From Capnocytophaga periodontitidis (lineage in GTDB: Bacteria > Bacteroidota > Bacteroidia > Flavobacteriales > Flavobacteriaceae): a stretch of 64,000 nt of DNA. Made by a program: the position numbers and the translations under genes. A model generated the notes under the pieces. That model ran no database searches. It had not been told where the DNA came from and worked only from the letters and a program-made list of their open reading frames with translations. The stretch spans positions 124,001-188,000 of the forward strand of contig NZ_JAEFDB010000001.1 in assembly GCF_016126015.1 (NCBI RefSeq), written 5' to 3'. Each line of letters begins with the position of its first letter. Position 1 is the stretch's first letter. Positions 53,398 through 63,844 of this stretch are shown here, piece after piece.

Positions 53398-55062
53398 ATG
53401 AGAAAAACTTTTTTAAGCGTTAGCGCTTTCGTGCTTTTATCAGTTTCGGCTGTTGCACAAGTAAAGGACATTAGTTTTGCAGTAGCACCTACTGTTGATT
53501 ATGTATGGTTGCCAAAGAAAACAGCTGTGACCAATGGCTTTATGGCGGGGGGTTATGTAGGTTTTGGTTTTGGTAGAAATTTAGAGTTATTGGGCTCTTA
53601 TAAGCATTCAATAGGGTTGAAATCAACTCTTGATGGTTATGATGCTCCTGCTGCTATTAGCAATGTATTTGAAGCTAAAGATGTATCTGTATATCGCTGG
53701 GGTGGAGAGCTAAAAGGAAATATCCCAATGGCTTATTCTTTTCAGCCTTATGTTACTTTAGGTTCAGGTGTGCAAACTATCAAAGCTAATGATTTGAGTC
53801 AAAACCAAGTATATTTTGGTTTAGGAATAGGTTCTAAATTTAATCTTGCCCGCCGTCTTACTTTGAATATAGAGGCTAAAGCTACTCACTTTTCATTAGA
53901 CTCTAGAAATATACTTTATAAACCAACAGAAGCTAACACATCGGCTTACAATAGTTGGATAAACAGTAATGTAGAAGATAAAAGTCATTTGCTCTGGAGT
54001 GTAGGTGCAGGTTTAGAACTTTACTTAGGAGGTCGCAATCCTAATGAATTAACCGAGTTAGACCAAGTATATACAAGTCTAAAAGGTTTTAAAGTAGTGA
54101 TAGAACCTACTTTGGGTTACTTAAACTTCAACGAAGACAGCAATTTGCGCGATGCCTACTTTGGAGGTTTGGCATTGGGAGTAGATTTCACTGAGTACAT
54201 AGGTGTTAGAGGTTACTATCACCGTGCTATGAAAGATGAGAAATTCTCTGCTGAGTTTGACAAACTATCCATATATGGGGGAGATTTCTTAGCCCGATTG
54301 AATGTAGCCAAAGGAGTAGTTCCTTATTTGCAAATAGGTGTGGGCTATATGAAAGTAGGTGATGACTATGTAGGTAAGGTAGTTAGCAATACCAATACCT
54401 CAGGTATTTTTGCCAAAGGAGGTGTAGGGTTAGCAATACCTTTAGGAAAACGTGTTGAGCTTTTTGGGGTAGCTAATTTGATGTATACTACTCGTAATGA
54501 AGATGTATCTTCTGCCTTGAGTTCAGTACATAAATTGCAAAGCAATGTATTTTATAATGCAGGGGTAAGAATTAAATTGGCTAAATCAGTAGAAAAAGAA
54601 TTGTATGAACAAGAATTAGGTGCAGCTGAAGCTGATAAAGTTTGGGTTGCTACCCCTACAACTACAACAAATGTTGCATCTACTATTTCTCCTGAAAAAC
54701 GAAACTTAGCTTACTACAACAGCCAGATAACTGCCACTGAAAAGCAACTACAAATGGCTTACCAAAATGGTGATACTGCAAATGCTAACCGTTTGTTAAA
54801 AGAAAAACAACAGTGGGAAAATCTTAGAAACACCTATGTAGCTGAGCGTTTGCCTTATCCTGCCTCAGAGCAAGTGCGCTTAGTGCGTATGACTCCTGAA
54901 GAGCTACAACAGCTAATAAATGATGTAGTAAAACGCATTAGAGAGGGAGAAGTAAAAAGTCCTGAACAACGTATCGACCGATTAGAAAAACTTCTTTTGG
55001 AAATGCAAGATTCAAAAGGTGAAATTCAAGAAGGGAAAATAGAAATACCTGCATCAAAATAA
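53398..55062 (+). CDS. Outer-membrane beta-barrel protein with coiled-coil tail
   Basis: This 554-residue protein has signal MRKTFLSVSAFVLLSVSAVAQ. It shows two successive beta-barrel-like halves, about 23-215 and 228-400 (ELLGSYKHSIGLKSTLDGYD, RLTLNIEAKATHFSL; KVVIEPTLGYLNFNED, RGYYHRAMKDEKFSAEF, GVGLAIPLGKRVELFG). A soluble tail of about 140 residues with heptad-like helices follows (NSQITATEKQLQMAYQNGD, TPEELQQLINDVVKRIREGE, RIDRLEKLLLEMQDSKG). The tail would lie in the periplasm and may pair with the OmpA-family protein encoded 2 bases downstream. Function unknown. Confidence 0.75.
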   Translation: MRKTFLSVSAFVLLSVSAVAQVKDISFAVAPTVDYVWLPKKTAVTNGFMAGGYVGFGFGRNLELLGSYKHSIGLKSTLDGYDAPAAISNVFEAKDVSVYRWGGELKGNIPMAYSFQPYVTLGSGVQTIKANDLSQNQVYFGLGIGSKFNLARRLTLNIEAKATHFSLDSRNILYKPTEANTSAYNSWINSNVEDKSHLLWSVGAGLELYLGGRNPNELTELDQVYTSLKGFKVVIEPTLGYLNFNEDSNLRDAYFGGLALGVDFTEYIGVRGYYHRAMKDEKFSAEFDKLSIYGGDFLARLNVAKGVVPYLQIGVGYMKVGDDYVGKVVSNTNTSGIFAKGGVGLAIPLGKRVELFGVANLMYTTRNEDVSSALSSVHKLQSNVFYNAGVRIKLAKSVEKELYEQELGAAEADKVWVATPTTTTNVASTISPEKRNLAYYNSQITATEKQLQMAYQNGDTANANRLLKEKQQWENLRNTYVAERLPYPASEQVRLVRMTPEELQQLINDVVKRIREGEVKSPEQRIDRLEKLLLEMQDSKGEIQEGKIEIPASK

Positions 55063-55064
55063 CT

Positions 55065-56105
55065 ATGAAGTATATCTATTGCATTATAGGGGTGCTATTA
55101 TTGTGTGTACATAGTATGTATGCACAAGTAGCCCCTAATAAAACAAAAACAGAGATAGTAATGACCGTAGATGAACTGCAATACTTATTAGAACAAATAG
55201 GGAGAGCAGAACTCACTAATCTCAGAGATAAGGAGTTGGACAGTATGCTATCGGCTGTAAAATATAAACAAAAAGAGATGCCTTACACTTCGGCAGTAGC
55301 TGAAGAAAGTAAATTTGCTACCAAAAGCCCAACAATAGTAGCAGGAACAGCAAGTAATACTGCAGTAGCACGTACGGCAACTAATACAGCTATTGCGCGT
55401 ACAGCTACCAACACTGCTATCGCACGTAACACTGCAATACCTCGCACCGCAAGTACTACAACCTCTCGTGTAATGCCTCACACTACAGTGGCTCCTATGG
55501 CAGTATCTCAAACAGCAAGTAGTACTACTGCTATCGCACAACAGGTGGCACAATTGTCGAAAAGTGTAGATCAGTTACGCAAACAGCAACAATTGCTCTT
55601 AGCTGCTTTAGCTGCCAATACAGGAGTAGGAATAGCTACAAAAAATGCACGTGCAACAACAGTTACACCTACAACAGCATCTCAAACTCCTATAGTAGTC
55701 CAAAATGTGACAGCTACTGGAGTACCTATGCAAATTTCGGCTGAAAGACGAAGTGAATTGGAGCAATTATTAGCCGCGTATGGACATAAAAAAGCTGTAC
55801 TTTATTTTGCTAATAACAAGTCTGTGCCCTTAAGTTACGACCCTATTACTATAGATGAGATGGTAACAATGCTAAAAACACATCCCGAGTTATCAATACT
55901 CTTAGAAGGGTACGCAAGTGAGGTAGGAAGTGTTGCATATAACAATGTATTGTCGATGCAACGTGCTGTAAATGTAGCTCAAATATTAAAAGCTAAAGGA
56001 ATAAGTAGCGAACGTATACTAACTGCTTTTAAAGGAATAGACCCACAGGTTACACCTGCCGAAGCACGACGTGTAGAGCTAAGAGTTGTTATCCATAGCT
56101 ATTAA
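55065..56105 (+). CDS. OmpA-family protein with Ala/Thr-rich repeat linker
   Basis: This 346-residue protein has signal MKYIYCIIGVLLLCVHSMYAQ. A short helical segment (about 30-70), a long Ala/Thr-rich low-complexity linker (about 85-215, with ARTATNTAI repeats at 102-128 and a coiled coil near 160-185), and a C-terminal OmpA-like domain (about 225-346) follow. The OmpA domain shows AVLYFANNKSVPLSYD, LSILLEGYASEVGS, NNVLSMQRAVNVAQILKAKG and RRVELRVVI. The usual D of TDxxG is replaced (YASEVGS), so peptidoglycan binding is uncertain. It is co-transcribed with the barrel protein, 2 bases apart. Confidence 0.8.
   Translation: MKYIYCIIGVLLLCVHSMYAQVAPNKTKTEIVMTVDELQYLLEQIGRAELTNLRDKELDSMLSAVKYKQKEMPYTSAVAEESKFATKSPTIVAGTASNTAVARTATNTAIARTATNTAIARNTAIPRTASTTTSRVMPHTTVAPMAVSQTASSTTAIAQQVAQLSKSVDQLRKQQQLLLAALAANTGVGIATKNARATTVTPTTASQTPIVVQNVTATGVPMQISAERRSELEQLLAAYGHKKAVLYFANNKSVPLSYDPITIDEMVTMLKTHPELSILLEGYASEVGSVAYNNVLSMQRAVNVAQILKAKGISSERILTAFKGIDPQVTPAEARRVELRVVIHSY
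55368..55448 (+). repeat. 27-bp repeats encoding ARTATNTAI
   Basis: Three consecutive ARTATNTAI units. Their DNA differs at synonymous sites, unlike the identical 15-bp repeats at 45637-45720, so this repeat is older and seems kept at protein level. Confidence 0.8.
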
Positions 56106-60043: not shown

Positions 60044-60361
60044 ATGGAAAAATTGATAGATTATACAGAAACATCTATTCCAAGAGGAACGATATTTAAA
60101 TGTAAAGGAGTATATCCTTATGAAGAAGTTGTGTACTTTCTATTGTGTGAATTAGGTGATAGTTACGGTTTAATGGTAATTTCGGGTTATAAAGCAGGAT
60201 TAGTTTATGTGCGTTTCCCTAAAGAATCTATACCTGAAGGTTACAAATTCGGACTAAGAGCAGATTGGCTAAAGGAAAATTGGCAAAAATGGGGCTATAT
60301 AGATTGCCAACTAAAAGATGTTTATATCTGTGAGAATACCGAAATGTTTTCTTTTAAATAA
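60044..60361 (+). CDS. Imm45-family immunity protein
   Basis: The 105-residue protein resembles the Imm45 family: SIPRGTIFKCKGVYPYEEVV, YGLMVISGYKAGLVYVRFPK, ADWLKENWQKWGYIDCQLKDVYI. Imm45 proteins neutralise toxin domains of polymorphic-toxin or contact-dependent systems (the family was defined by neighbourhood). No toxin, VgrG, T9SS cargo or RHS gene is next to it, so it looks like an orphan immunity gene. It lies 6 bases after gltS and may ride on its transcript. Confidence 0.75.
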   Translation: MEKLIDYTETSIPRGTIFKCKGVYPYEEVVYFLLCELGDSYGLMVISGYKAGLVYVRFPKESIPEGYKFGLRADWLKENWQKWGYIDCQLKDVYICENTEMFSFK

Positions 60362-60462
60362 GTTTTGAACTCTCTATTAAAGATAATATTCAAAAAGAAA
60401 TATTGATAGGAGAGAAAATAGATAATGATTTGACTCACAAAATTTGGAATTGGTTAGATTAA
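60358..60462 (+). pseudogene. Headless 3' remnant of a small gene
   Basis: A 34-codon open stretch without a start codon. It reads SFELSIKDNIQKEILIGEKI and then DNDLTHKIWNWLD before its stop at 60460-60462. The mix of residues is that of a real protein C-terminus, helical and ending in a W-x-W-L-D motif. In this frame a stop lies immediately upstream (60355-60357). It is probably the tail of a lost immunity-type gene, since it is followed after 4 bases by the ATG of the next gene. Family not known. Confidence 0.5.
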
Positions 60463-60466
60463 AAAA

Positions 60467-60968
60467 ATGGAAAATTTACTTTTTTTTAGAAGCATTAAAA
60501 GCATTACAATGGAACATTTCCGCAGATAAATTACCTGATAATTTTCGCGTGGAAGATATAGCTAATGGAAGAATGCAATATACCCCCAAAGAATTTCAAG
60601 AATTTATAAACTTGTTCAGTGTGTGTGCTAATCAAGAAGATACAGTATGGTTTCTATCAGCTAAAGATTACCAAAATACTGATGAATCTGCTTTTGCTTG
60701 GAATGAGTTTGAAAAACAGAGCTTAGAATATGCAGAAAATGACAACGAAAGAAATAAGGTAAGTGAGTTTTGGAAAGCTCATTTACCTTTCCTTATATCA
60801 GTTAAAAATGGGTATGAATATCTGGCTATAGGGATTGCTAAACATAATTTTGGTAATATTTATCGCGGGTATGAACCTATGTATGAAGAAACGGAACTTA
60901 TAGCTTCTTCTTTTTCTGAATTTAAACAACAGTATATCGATGATTGTGCATCACATTCTAACTCCTAA
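60467..60968 (+). pseudogene. SUKH (SMI1/KNR4)-like immunity gene with frameshift at T8
   Basis: The body (from about 60486) encodes an SMI1/KNR4-like protein: WNISADKLPDNF, FWKAHLPFLISVKNGYEYLA, YRGYEPMYEETELIASSFSE. The best start is the ATG at 60467, 4 bases after the upstream stop. It reads MENLLF and then hits an eight-T run (60480-60487) that shifts the frame. With seven T it would read MENLLFLEALKALQWN, a natural start, giving 166 residues. As written, only a TTG at 60444, inside the upstream remnant, gives an intact frame (174 residues). It is either broken, expressed by slippage, or switched by T-run length. Confidence 0.6.
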
Positions 60969-61084: not shown

Positions 61085-63844
61085 ATGGATAAAATGATGT
61101 TATATTTACCGTTAGTCCTTGCTATTCTTGGACTTATCTTTATGATTGCGAAAGCTTCGTGGGTGAACAAACAAACCACAGGCAACGATCGAATGCAAAG
61201 TATTTCCAAAAGTATCAAAGAAGGGGCAATGGCGTTTCTCAATGCTGAGTACCGCATTTTAGGTATTTTTGTGATTATTGCTTCTATTGCTCTGTTTATT
61301 GTTTCTCGTATGGTAGAAACTTCTCACTGGCTTATTGTAGTAGCTTTTGTGTGTGGAGCTTTCTTCTCTGCCTTAGCGGGAAATATCGGGATGCGTATTG
61401 CTACCAATGCTAACGTACGCACTACCGAAGCAGCTCGCACTAGCTTGCCAAAAGCTTTGAGAGTATCCTTTGGAGGTGGTACTGTAATGGGATTAGGAGT
61501 GGCAGGTTTGGCTGTATTGGGCTTGAGCTTGTTCTTTATCCTCTTTGTAAACACTTTTGTAGGAGGAGGCAAACCTTTCTATGACGAAATGACTCTTGTA
61601 CTCGAAGCCTTAGCAGGTTTCTCACTCGGTGCTGAGTCTATCGCACTCTTTGCTCGTGTGGGTGGTGGTATTTATACCAAAGCTGCCGACGTAGGGGCTG
61701 ACCTCGTAGGAAAAGTAGAAGCTGGTATCCCAGAAGATGACCCTCGTAACCCTGCTACTATTGCCGACAACGTAGGTGATAACGTAGGTGACGTAGCTGG
61801 TATGGGAGCTGACTTGTTCGGTTCGTATGTGGCTACTGTACTCGCTTCAATGGTATTGGGTAACTACGTGATTAAAGATATGGCAACTGCCAATGGTGGT
61901 GCTTTCACCGATGCCTTTGGTGGTTTAGGCCCTATCTTATTGCCGTTAGTAATTGCTGGTGTAGGTATCATTGCTTCAATTATTGGTACTTTCTGTGTAG
62001 GTATCAAAAACAACGATGCTAAAGAAAAACAAGTACAAAGTTCACTAAATACAGGTAACTATGTAGCTTTAGCACTTACTTTAGTAGCTTGCTATTTTCT
62101 TATCAAATATATGTTACCCGAAACTATCCAAATGAGTTTCTTTGGCGAAGGAGTAAAAGAGATTGCAAGTATCAATGTATTCTATGCAACTATCGTAGGT
62201 TTGGCAGTAGGCTTACTCATTTCTGCTATTACTGAACACTTTACCGCTTTGGGTAAAAAACCAGTATTGAATATCGTACGCAATTCATCTACTGGAGCTG
62301 CTACTAACATTATTGCAGGTTTGGCTACAGGTATGAAATCTACCTTTGGTTCTGTATTGCTTTTTGCTGTAGCTATTTGGGGTTCTTACTCTTTAGCTGG
62401 TTTCTATGGTGTAGCGATTGCCGCATCAGCAATGATGGCAACTACAGCTATGCAATTGGCTATTGATGCTTTTGGTCCTATTGCTGATAATGCTGGGGGT
62501 GTAGCCGAAATGAGTGAATTGCCAAAAGAAGTGCGTCAACGTACTGATATTTTAGACTCAGTAGGTAATACTACTGCAGCTGTAGGTAAAGGATTTGCTA
62601 TTGCTTCAGCAGCTCTTACCGCCTTAGCCTTGTTCGCTGCTTATGTGACCTTTACAGGCATTTCTGGTATCAATATTTTCAAAGCAAACGTATTAGCTGC
62701 CTTGTTTATCGGAGGTATGATTCCAGTAATTTTCTCAGCCTTGGCAATGCAATCAGTAGGGAAAGCTGCTATGGATATGGTGAACGAAGTACGTCGCCAA
62801 TTCCGTGAAATCCCTGGTATTATGGAAGGTAAAGGTACTCCAGAGTATGGTAGATGTGTAGATATTTCTACCAAAGCTGCTTTGCGCGAAATGATGTTAC
62901 CTGGTGCTATTACAATCATCACTCCTATTATCATCGGTTTTGTGATGGGTGCTGAAGCTCTTGGCGCTTATATGGCTGGTGTAGCTGTATCAGGAGTTGT
63001 ATGGGCTATCTTCCAAAACAACGCTGGTGGTGCTTGGGACAATGCTAAGAAATCATTTGAAGCAGGTGTTGAAATCAACGGACAAATGACTTACAAAGGT
63101 TCTGATGCTCACAAAGCTGCCGTTACTGGTGATACTGTAGGTGACCCATTCAAAGATACTTCAGGACCTTCAATGAATATCCTTATCAAACTCACTTGCT
63201 TGGTAGGTTTGGTAATTGCTCCTATCTTGGGTGGACATACCGCTGATGCTTCAGGTACTCCTATAGAAGCTCAAATTCGTCAAGGTGAAGGTGAGGGAGT
63301 GATGCCTGTGGAAGAAGTAGTAGTTATTGAAGAAGGTAAGCTTAACGCCGATGGTGACTTCGAGTACAATGTAGGTGATTTATTCCAATTGAGCCTTTTT
63401 GACAATACAATGTTAGAAGTAGGAAAGAACTCATCTGAAGCACACCTCGTGAAATTGATAGAAGATAAAAACCTTACTACTCCAGAACAGTTCAAAGATA
63501 ACTGGATTACTTTGGATAGAACTTACTTCAAAACAGGTAGCGATGAACTTACTGAAGGTTCTGAACAACAATTAAAGAACATTGTAGCTATTTTGAAAGC
63601 TTATCCTAAAGCTGCTATTCGTTTAGGAGGTTATACTGATAATACGGGTAGTGTTGAAGGTAACAAAAAACTTTCAGAAAGACGTGCTAATTCAGTGCTA
63701 AACAAATTGGTAGCATTGGGTGCTAACAAAGCTCAATTGAGCGCTCAAGGTTATGGTGCAGAACACCCTCTTTGTCCTGCTAACGATACTCCTGAGTGCA
63801 AAGCTAAAAACAGACGTATCGACATACGTTTGACTGCTAAATAA
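61085..63844 (+). CDS. hppA: K+-dependent membrane pyrophosphatase fused to an OmpA domain
   Basis: The pump (about residues 1-720) hydrolyses PPi to move H+ or Na+. Motifs: [20 protein letters not shown] (Asp206 region), [18 protein letters not shown], and [10 protein letters not shown] (near 493), whose Ala marks the K+-dependent class. Gly replaces the acidic residue often found after ADLF; such proteins include H+ and dual pumps, so the ion is unsure. A linker rich in acidic residues (about 720-809) leads to an OmpA domain (about 810-919: [50 protein letters not shown]). The pump C-terminus is extracytoplasmic in the family, so the domain would reach peptidoglycan. The usual length is 670-750. 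Confidence 0.93.

Follow-up and report, generated by a model that had tools for sequence, protein, structure and literature searches.

Membrane-bound pyrophosphatases (mPPases) are homodimers with extracytoplasmic C-termini, in which the last transmembrane helix (TM16) contributes its start to the active site at the cytosolic face and runs outwards from there, and in which K+-independent enzymes carry a lysine at the K+-dependence position. An addition to such a pump was described in a 2024 review for Paucibacter sp. KCTC 42545, whose m-PPase bears at its C-terminus an OmpA-like domain of about 110 residues with a role to be elucidated, and four further proteobacterial m-PPase-OmpA records are given in Table 2 of this review, where the labels are Paucibacter, Burkholderiaceae, Betaproteobacteria and Pseudomonadota and no Bacteroidota appear (PMC11210485). 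No other report of an mPPase-OmpA fusion was found in the open-access literature. For the OmpA-like fold, the wall peptide in the PorE crystal is bound by the side chains of D576, N584 and R591, which are described as conserved across the OmpA family (PMC7192894). For the pump, excerpts of two papers give a glutamate at position 5.43 as the mark of the H+-pumping enzyme of F. johnsoniae (PMC10897367; PMC6882861).

We describe here an mPPase-OmpA fusion from the oral bacterium Capnocytophaga periodontitidis, found in a stretch of 64,000 nucleotides that we refer to as the window (contig NZ_JAEFDB010000001.1, positions 124,001 to 188,000). With a probability of about 0.68, we read the protein as a PPi-driven inner-membrane H+ pump whose C-terminal leash and OmpA head bind the diaminopimelate peptide of the cell wall, most likely as a passive tether. 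The spread of the fusion in Bacteroidota, its repeated origin and the exchange of its module appear to be new as far as the open-access literature shows.

Architecture of the fused protein

The features of the locus, numbered by window position, are the following.

61085..63844, + strand: mPPase-OmpA fusion gene, 919 amino acids plus stop (Pfam)
61085..63235, + strand: residues 1-717, membrane pyrophosphatase core up to the end of helix 16 (Pfam H_PPase 14-711, Foldseek)
61634..61636, + strand: Glu184 at position 5.43, the semi-conserved glutamate that the F. johnsoniae H+-PPase also has there (position scheme from PMC10897367 and PMC6882861, placed on the sequence by us)
63104..63229, + strand: residues 674-715, last helix (TM16), a helix of the model, taken to run outwards from the active-site motif as in mPPases generally
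63236..63328, + strand: residues 718-748, disordered, fast-evolving leash of 31 residues (pLDDT <50; dN/dS)
63329..63517, + strand: residues 749-811, small beta-rich subdomain belonging to the shared module (structure model; alignment of Capnocytophaga-type with Chryseobacterium-type tails)
63518..63841, + strand: residues 812-919, OmpA_C-like peptidoglycan-binding domain (Pfam, fold match)
63638..63640, + strand: Asp852, counterpart of PorE Asp576, invariant in 25/25 aligned tails
63662..63664, + strand: Asn860, counterpart of PorE Asn584, invariant in 25/25 aligned tails
63683..63685, + strand: Arg867, counterpart of PorE Arg591, invariant in 25/25 aligned tails
63773..63799, + strand: Cys897 to Cys905, possible disulphide in the OmpA head, invariant in 25/25 aligned tails

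The gene is a single open frame with an ATG start and without internal stop, and its 919-residue product is a complete membrane pyrophosphatase joined to an OmpA-like domain. Pfam places H_PPase (PF03030) at residues 14-711 over the entire profile (1-645 of 645; 875.8 bits, E 2.8e-263), which bears out the complete core claimed in the initial annotation, and the NCBIfam model NF001955 is matched with 1236.2 bits (cut-off 1059). The profile search of the C-terminal residues that the same annotation had proposed returned OmpA (PF00691) at residues 814-910, again over the entire profile (1-98 of 98; 68.2 bits, cut-off 27.2, E 8.5e-19), and the motifs TDNTG (residues 851-855) and S-x-x-R-A (residues 864-868) are intact as first described. 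A sequencing join or frameshift as the source of the fusion, already doubted in that annotation on account of the continuous frame, is ruled out by the occurrence of this frame at full length in 15/20 genomes of the genus. Of the acidic linker of about 90 residues that had been proposed between the two parts, the acidity stands, the stretch at residues 718-813 having 96 amino acids with 20 Asp and Glu versus 7 Lys and Arg, but predicted disorder is confined to residues 718-748, and from residue 749 the model is ordered, with a beta-rich part preceding the OmpA fold. The structure model has a mean pLDDT of 85.0 and 16 long helices; Foldseek aligns it with the V. radiata H+-PPase (6afw_A) at E 5.6e-49 and a TM-score of 0.72 of the query and 0.89 of the target, and the head is matched in fold by domains that bind the wall, among them Pal, MotB and the peptide-bound 3td5.

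The best reading of the core from its residues is a K+-dependent H+ pump of the F. johnsoniae type: besides Glu184 there is no glutamate at 6.53 or 6.57 (position numbers placed by us), and the K+-dependence position is occupied by alanine (GNTTAA). The fused pump would thus be expected to transport H+. Since helix 16 begins at the cytosolic active-site motif and crosses the membrane once, the OmpA head should lie on the periplasmic side; the initial view that the topology suits a pump tied to the wall gains from this single crossing, its other premise, the extracytoplasmic C-terminus, being general background on the family. For the periplasmic side of mPPase C-termini, no usable statement was found in PMC5150537 and PMC9560603.

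The 25 aligned tails comprise 15 of the Capnocytophaga type and 10 of the Chryseobacterium type. The spacing of D852, N860 and R867 (8 and 7) equals that of D576, N584 and R591 in PorE, and the asparagine recurs in 38/38 fused tails picked by a motif that did not itself demand it, while the count of all three residues in these motif-picked tails is partly circular as the selection motif already contains the aspartate and the arginine. The Cys897/Cys905 pair is common to the Capnocytophaga-type, Chryseobacterium-type, L143 and L145 tails and is not present in 11 other listed fused tails, nor in the modules of the DUF937 proteins L122-L124 and L129. By its residues and fold the head is thus predicted to bind peptidoglycan in the cell. 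Such domains can apparently lose this capacity, as a profile search found an mPPase tail from another family (L132, genome G1155) that is still recognisable as an OmpA module and has lost the wall-binding motif.

Substitution ratios among eight Capnocytophaga-type gene pairs show purifying selection on the head and a freely evolving leash: dN/dS was 0.01-0.03 for the core (8/8 pairs), 0.04-0.14 for the head (7/8 pairs computable) and 0.16-2.1 for the leash (7/8 pairs computable), and these ratios are rough, since dS approaches or exceeds 1 in several cases. The leashes of the closest pair are 90% identical and those of the remaining seven pairs 15-58%, yet helix 16 and the GYTD motif lie 125-141 residues apart in all 15 Capnocytophaga-type tails. 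A kept length together with a free sequence is the pattern expected of a tether.

A functional operon with the neighbouring genes found no support, and there is no evident link to the downstream gene for a 680-residue lipoprotein, a gene similar to which is kept in G008, G010 and G013. Two small upstream genes (window 60044-60361 and 60444-60968) resemble immunity proteins, with Imm45 over and SMI1_KNR4/SUKH under the cut-off. Further upstream (window 53398-56105), a gene for a beta-barrel outer-membrane protein is followed by one for a 346-residue OmpA-domain protein containing repeats rich in Thr, Ala and Asn, and the two may form a pair.

Distribution and origin of the tail

The fusion is found in 15/20 Capnocytophaga genomes with matches spanning 916 to 919 query residues, and every pump found in the genus carries the tail (15/15); the other five genomes (G007, G011, G012, G014 and G015, of which G014 is only 88% complete) gave no mPPase match and all possess a soluble family I pyrophosphatase. 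That the genus is Capnocytophaga agrees with an OmpA encoded by G007, in which all 261 residues of the C. gingivalis OmpA chain in PDB 5wtl recur unchanged. This soluble enzyme is matched over its full profile in 16/20 genomes and was not found in G008, G010 and G013, while in the C. periodontitidis genome (G000) it occurs only as two fragments. The broken gene lies outside the window (G000:C1:765399-765676; L102:1878-2132) and, compared at the DNA level with the intact copy of G018, has an internal deletion that is not a multiple of three; G010 retains at most a short remnant of the gene in the same kind of comparison. Family II pyrophosphatases were found in 0/20 genomes. In 4/20 genomes, that of C. 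periodontitidis included, the fused pump is therefore the only pyrophosphatase found of the three kinds searched (mPPase, family I and family II), and it may be the sole pyrophosphatase of C. periodontitidis. As the searches found no family II enzyme and no intact family I enzyme beside it in these four genomes, the pump is probably active with its tail on.

The fusion had been thought unusual for the family of mPPases, a view that finds no support in this form: besides the 15/15 pumps of the genus, 56 of the 59 frames listed for the Chryseobacterium family have the fused length, and several other Bacteroidota lineages carry it too. It is thus common in parts of Bacteroidota, whereas, as regards the question whether it is also long described, the open-access literature yielded a description in Proteobacteria only, in the 2024 review (PMC11210485). 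Within the Flavobacteriaceae (299 genomes), the listed matches outside the genus all end by query residue 775, and an OmpA domain is lacking in all 37 pumps read from the rest of the family (L037-L073; L042 is cut by a contig end). At the order level, 288 of 395 genomes have a pump. Among these, a family (f5) that we take as the Chryseobacterium family, because the named Chryseobacterium L145 groups with it, has at least 59 pump places listed, 56 with frames of 908-959 and three with frames of 759-774 residues; all 11 long frames that were read contain OmpA and the two short ones read do not, in a sample that leaves out the pump of G472, and G391 of this family has no pump match among the matches listed. 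In two genomes of the Chryseobacterium family (L106, L107), the gene directly upstream of the mPPase resembles by eye a soluble inorganic pyrophosphatase.

At the class level (395 genomes), fused tails occur in at least three further families, namely f24 (four genomes), f70 (G1124) and f77 (G1350, G1320 and G1181), and an 882-residue frame in G1363 is probably another fused pump. Named genomes with a fused tail include at least Taibaiella helva (L144), Chryseobacterium sp. Leaf180 (L145) and the Bacteroidetes MAG UBA2364 (L146). A 9-kb contig labelled Phycisphaerales (L143) has one as well; it may be misbinned, since its core sits with Taibaiella. The fusion is seen on two core types, Glu5.43 and Glu6.53, the latter in L094, which has a BON plus OmpA tail and is the sole full-length match among the matches listed for the 146 genomes of its class. 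Among eight records assigned by name to a phylum other than Bacteroidota and its close relatives, six have no tail beyond helix 16; the remaining two, L143 and L174, have cores that cluster with those of Bacteroidota. Pumps without any tail also occur within Bacteroidota (among them L183, L191, L211 and L213). Other C-terminal additions to mPPases were observed: a YceI domain in L065 and L066 by Pfam, with L201 looking alike, a SnoaL-like addition above the Pfam cut-off in L067 and just below it in L068, and Cys-rich tails in Flavobacterium (L149, L160).

On a FastTree phylogeny of 158 cores, which contains long rows and is not a random sample, the OmpA tail requires nine state changes, all forced by starred branches, of which one is the loss in L132 and the others are undistinguished as gains or losses. 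That Capnocytophaga and the Chryseobacterium family inherited one fusion vertically is rejected, as their cores as one clade give a p-AU of 2.4e-10 (59 chosen rows). Their tails and that of L143, 23 mPPase modules in all, group as a supported clade (99/96), which adjoins DUF937-OmpA proteins (92/90, not starred). Because the tails form one clade with a common Cys pair and the cores do not, the tail has most likely moved between pump genes; alternatively, the sequences could point to an unsampled donor inside the clade of 23. A single capture for all mPPase modules is likewise rejected (p-AU 0.0002; 60 rows, omitting the long rows L094, L251, L252 and L002, the duplicate L236, and L023 and L024), so that the module was acquired at least twice, and on an earlier module tree including the long rows the mPPase label needs eight changes, four of them forced by starred branches. 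No donor module was found among the eight other places listed in the C. periodontitidis genome, where six matches begin at query residue 806 or later, C11 at 785 and C4 at 776, the scores of C11 and C4 being weak. The Sphingobacterium pumps L147 and L157 adjoin the Capnocytophaga-type cores on the tree (92) and lack an OmpA tail, which suggests gene transfer between the two groups.

The module is also found on other proteins. In family f77 (genus g475), five SecDF proteins that were read have it as an insertion in their periplasmic part (L130, L131, L134, L137 and L140; the Pfam order in L131 is SecD_1st, OmpA, P1 head, SecD_SecF_C), and the sister group of these inserts is made up of the pump modules of that family (98/99). 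Genome G1124 has the module on cytochrome oxidase subunit IV (COX4_pro; L232, L257:9362-10300), among genes that by eye resemble those of an oxidase; it shares 78% identity with the module on the mPPase of G1124 itself, and this fusion was seen in 1/13 genomes of the family of G1124. Related modules are carried by DUF937 proteins and by short proteins with one hydrophobic stretch. No report of SecDF or oxidase OmpA fusions was found in the open-access literature. A tentative and rather doubtful generalisation would be that the beta subdomain and OmpA head form a mobile wall-binding cassette that was repeatedly grafted onto periplasmic parts of unrelated energy-linked inner-membrane machines in Bacteroidota (mPPase several times on two core types, the SecDF P1 region, cytochrome oxidase subunit IV), in some cases through copying inside a single genome, which would give a wall-anchored layer of pumps and proton-driven machines that places or staples the inner membrane.

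A proposed passive tether and its alternatives

In the proposed mechanism, PPi from the cytoplasm would be split at the cytosolic face of the pump and H+ exported, the C-terminus would emerge outside the membrane, and the leash would let the head hold the diaminopimelate peptide of the wall. In a homodimer, each pump would present two heads, held to peptidoglycan like MotB-type stators, with the pump confined to the wall and the inner membrane stapled to it. We are less sure of what the attachment serves; most likely it would fix the position of a membrane protein and staple the inner membrane to the wall rather than act as a switch specific for the pump, because the leash is floppy and related heads sit on proteins of other functions. 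Three observations speak against the tether. The OmpA module of L132 has lost the wall-binding motif. Many Bacteroidota pumps have other tails or none; pumping therefore does not require a wall anchor, and additions at the C-terminus may simply be tolerated. Finally, 5/20 genomes of the genus gave no pump match.

Wall binding by the head might instead alter the turnover of the pump, such that PPi hydrolysis or H+ pumping would track the state of the wall or growth, and the direct departure of the tail from helix 16, whose start belongs to the active site, as well as the recurrent fusion to mPPases would suit such a regulator; we consider it quite unlikely, as 31 disordered and poorly conserved residues make tight mechanical coupling improbable and related modules serve on proteins of other functions. 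An explanation that we regard as unlikely, and that overlaps with the tether, sees in the C-terminus a permissive site and in the OmpA head a domain with a job of its own, for example in envelope cohesion, that would share only the membrane anchor with the pump: the YceI, SnoaL-like, BON plus OmpA and Cys-rich tails at the same site fit this view, as does the lack of a tail in 6/8 pumps from phyla outside Bacteroidota and near kin, yet some Bacteroidota pumps are tail-less, too. A chance fusion that left the pump with a functionless tail could be argued from the relatives L081 and L082 without a tail and from the degenerate tail of L132, but it is very improbable given the purifying selection on the head and the intact Asp, Asn and Arg residues in all 25 aligned tails.

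Relation to known systems

The putatively tethered pump may be the housekeeping pyrophosphatase in four genomes of the genus, and the repeated gain of the module on different pump cores, together with the SecDF and oxidase subunit cases, points to a little-studied ordering of the inner membrane in Bacteroidota. The closest described counterpart, the m-PPase-OmpA of Paucibacter, has the identical domain order, an mPPase followed by a C-terminal OmpA-like domain. Its core is predicted to be K+-insensitive in the review, from which the Capnocytophaga core, with its alanine at the K+ position, differs under the general rule for this position. With the H+-PPase of F. johnsoniae the fused pump shares the core subtype as judged by the Glu5.43 mark, but an OmpA domain is found in 0/37 pumps read from other genera of the same family. 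Pal, OmpA and PorE have the wall-binding fold and residues in common with the head; they anchor outer-membrane or periplasmic complexes, whereas the head described here sits on a primary pump. MotB and PomB stators have one membrane helix, a plug and a separate channel partner, in place of which the fused protein has a full mPPase core with 16 long helices. A head that does bind the wall would tie a primary ion pump physically to peptidoglycan, in the manner of flagellar stators.
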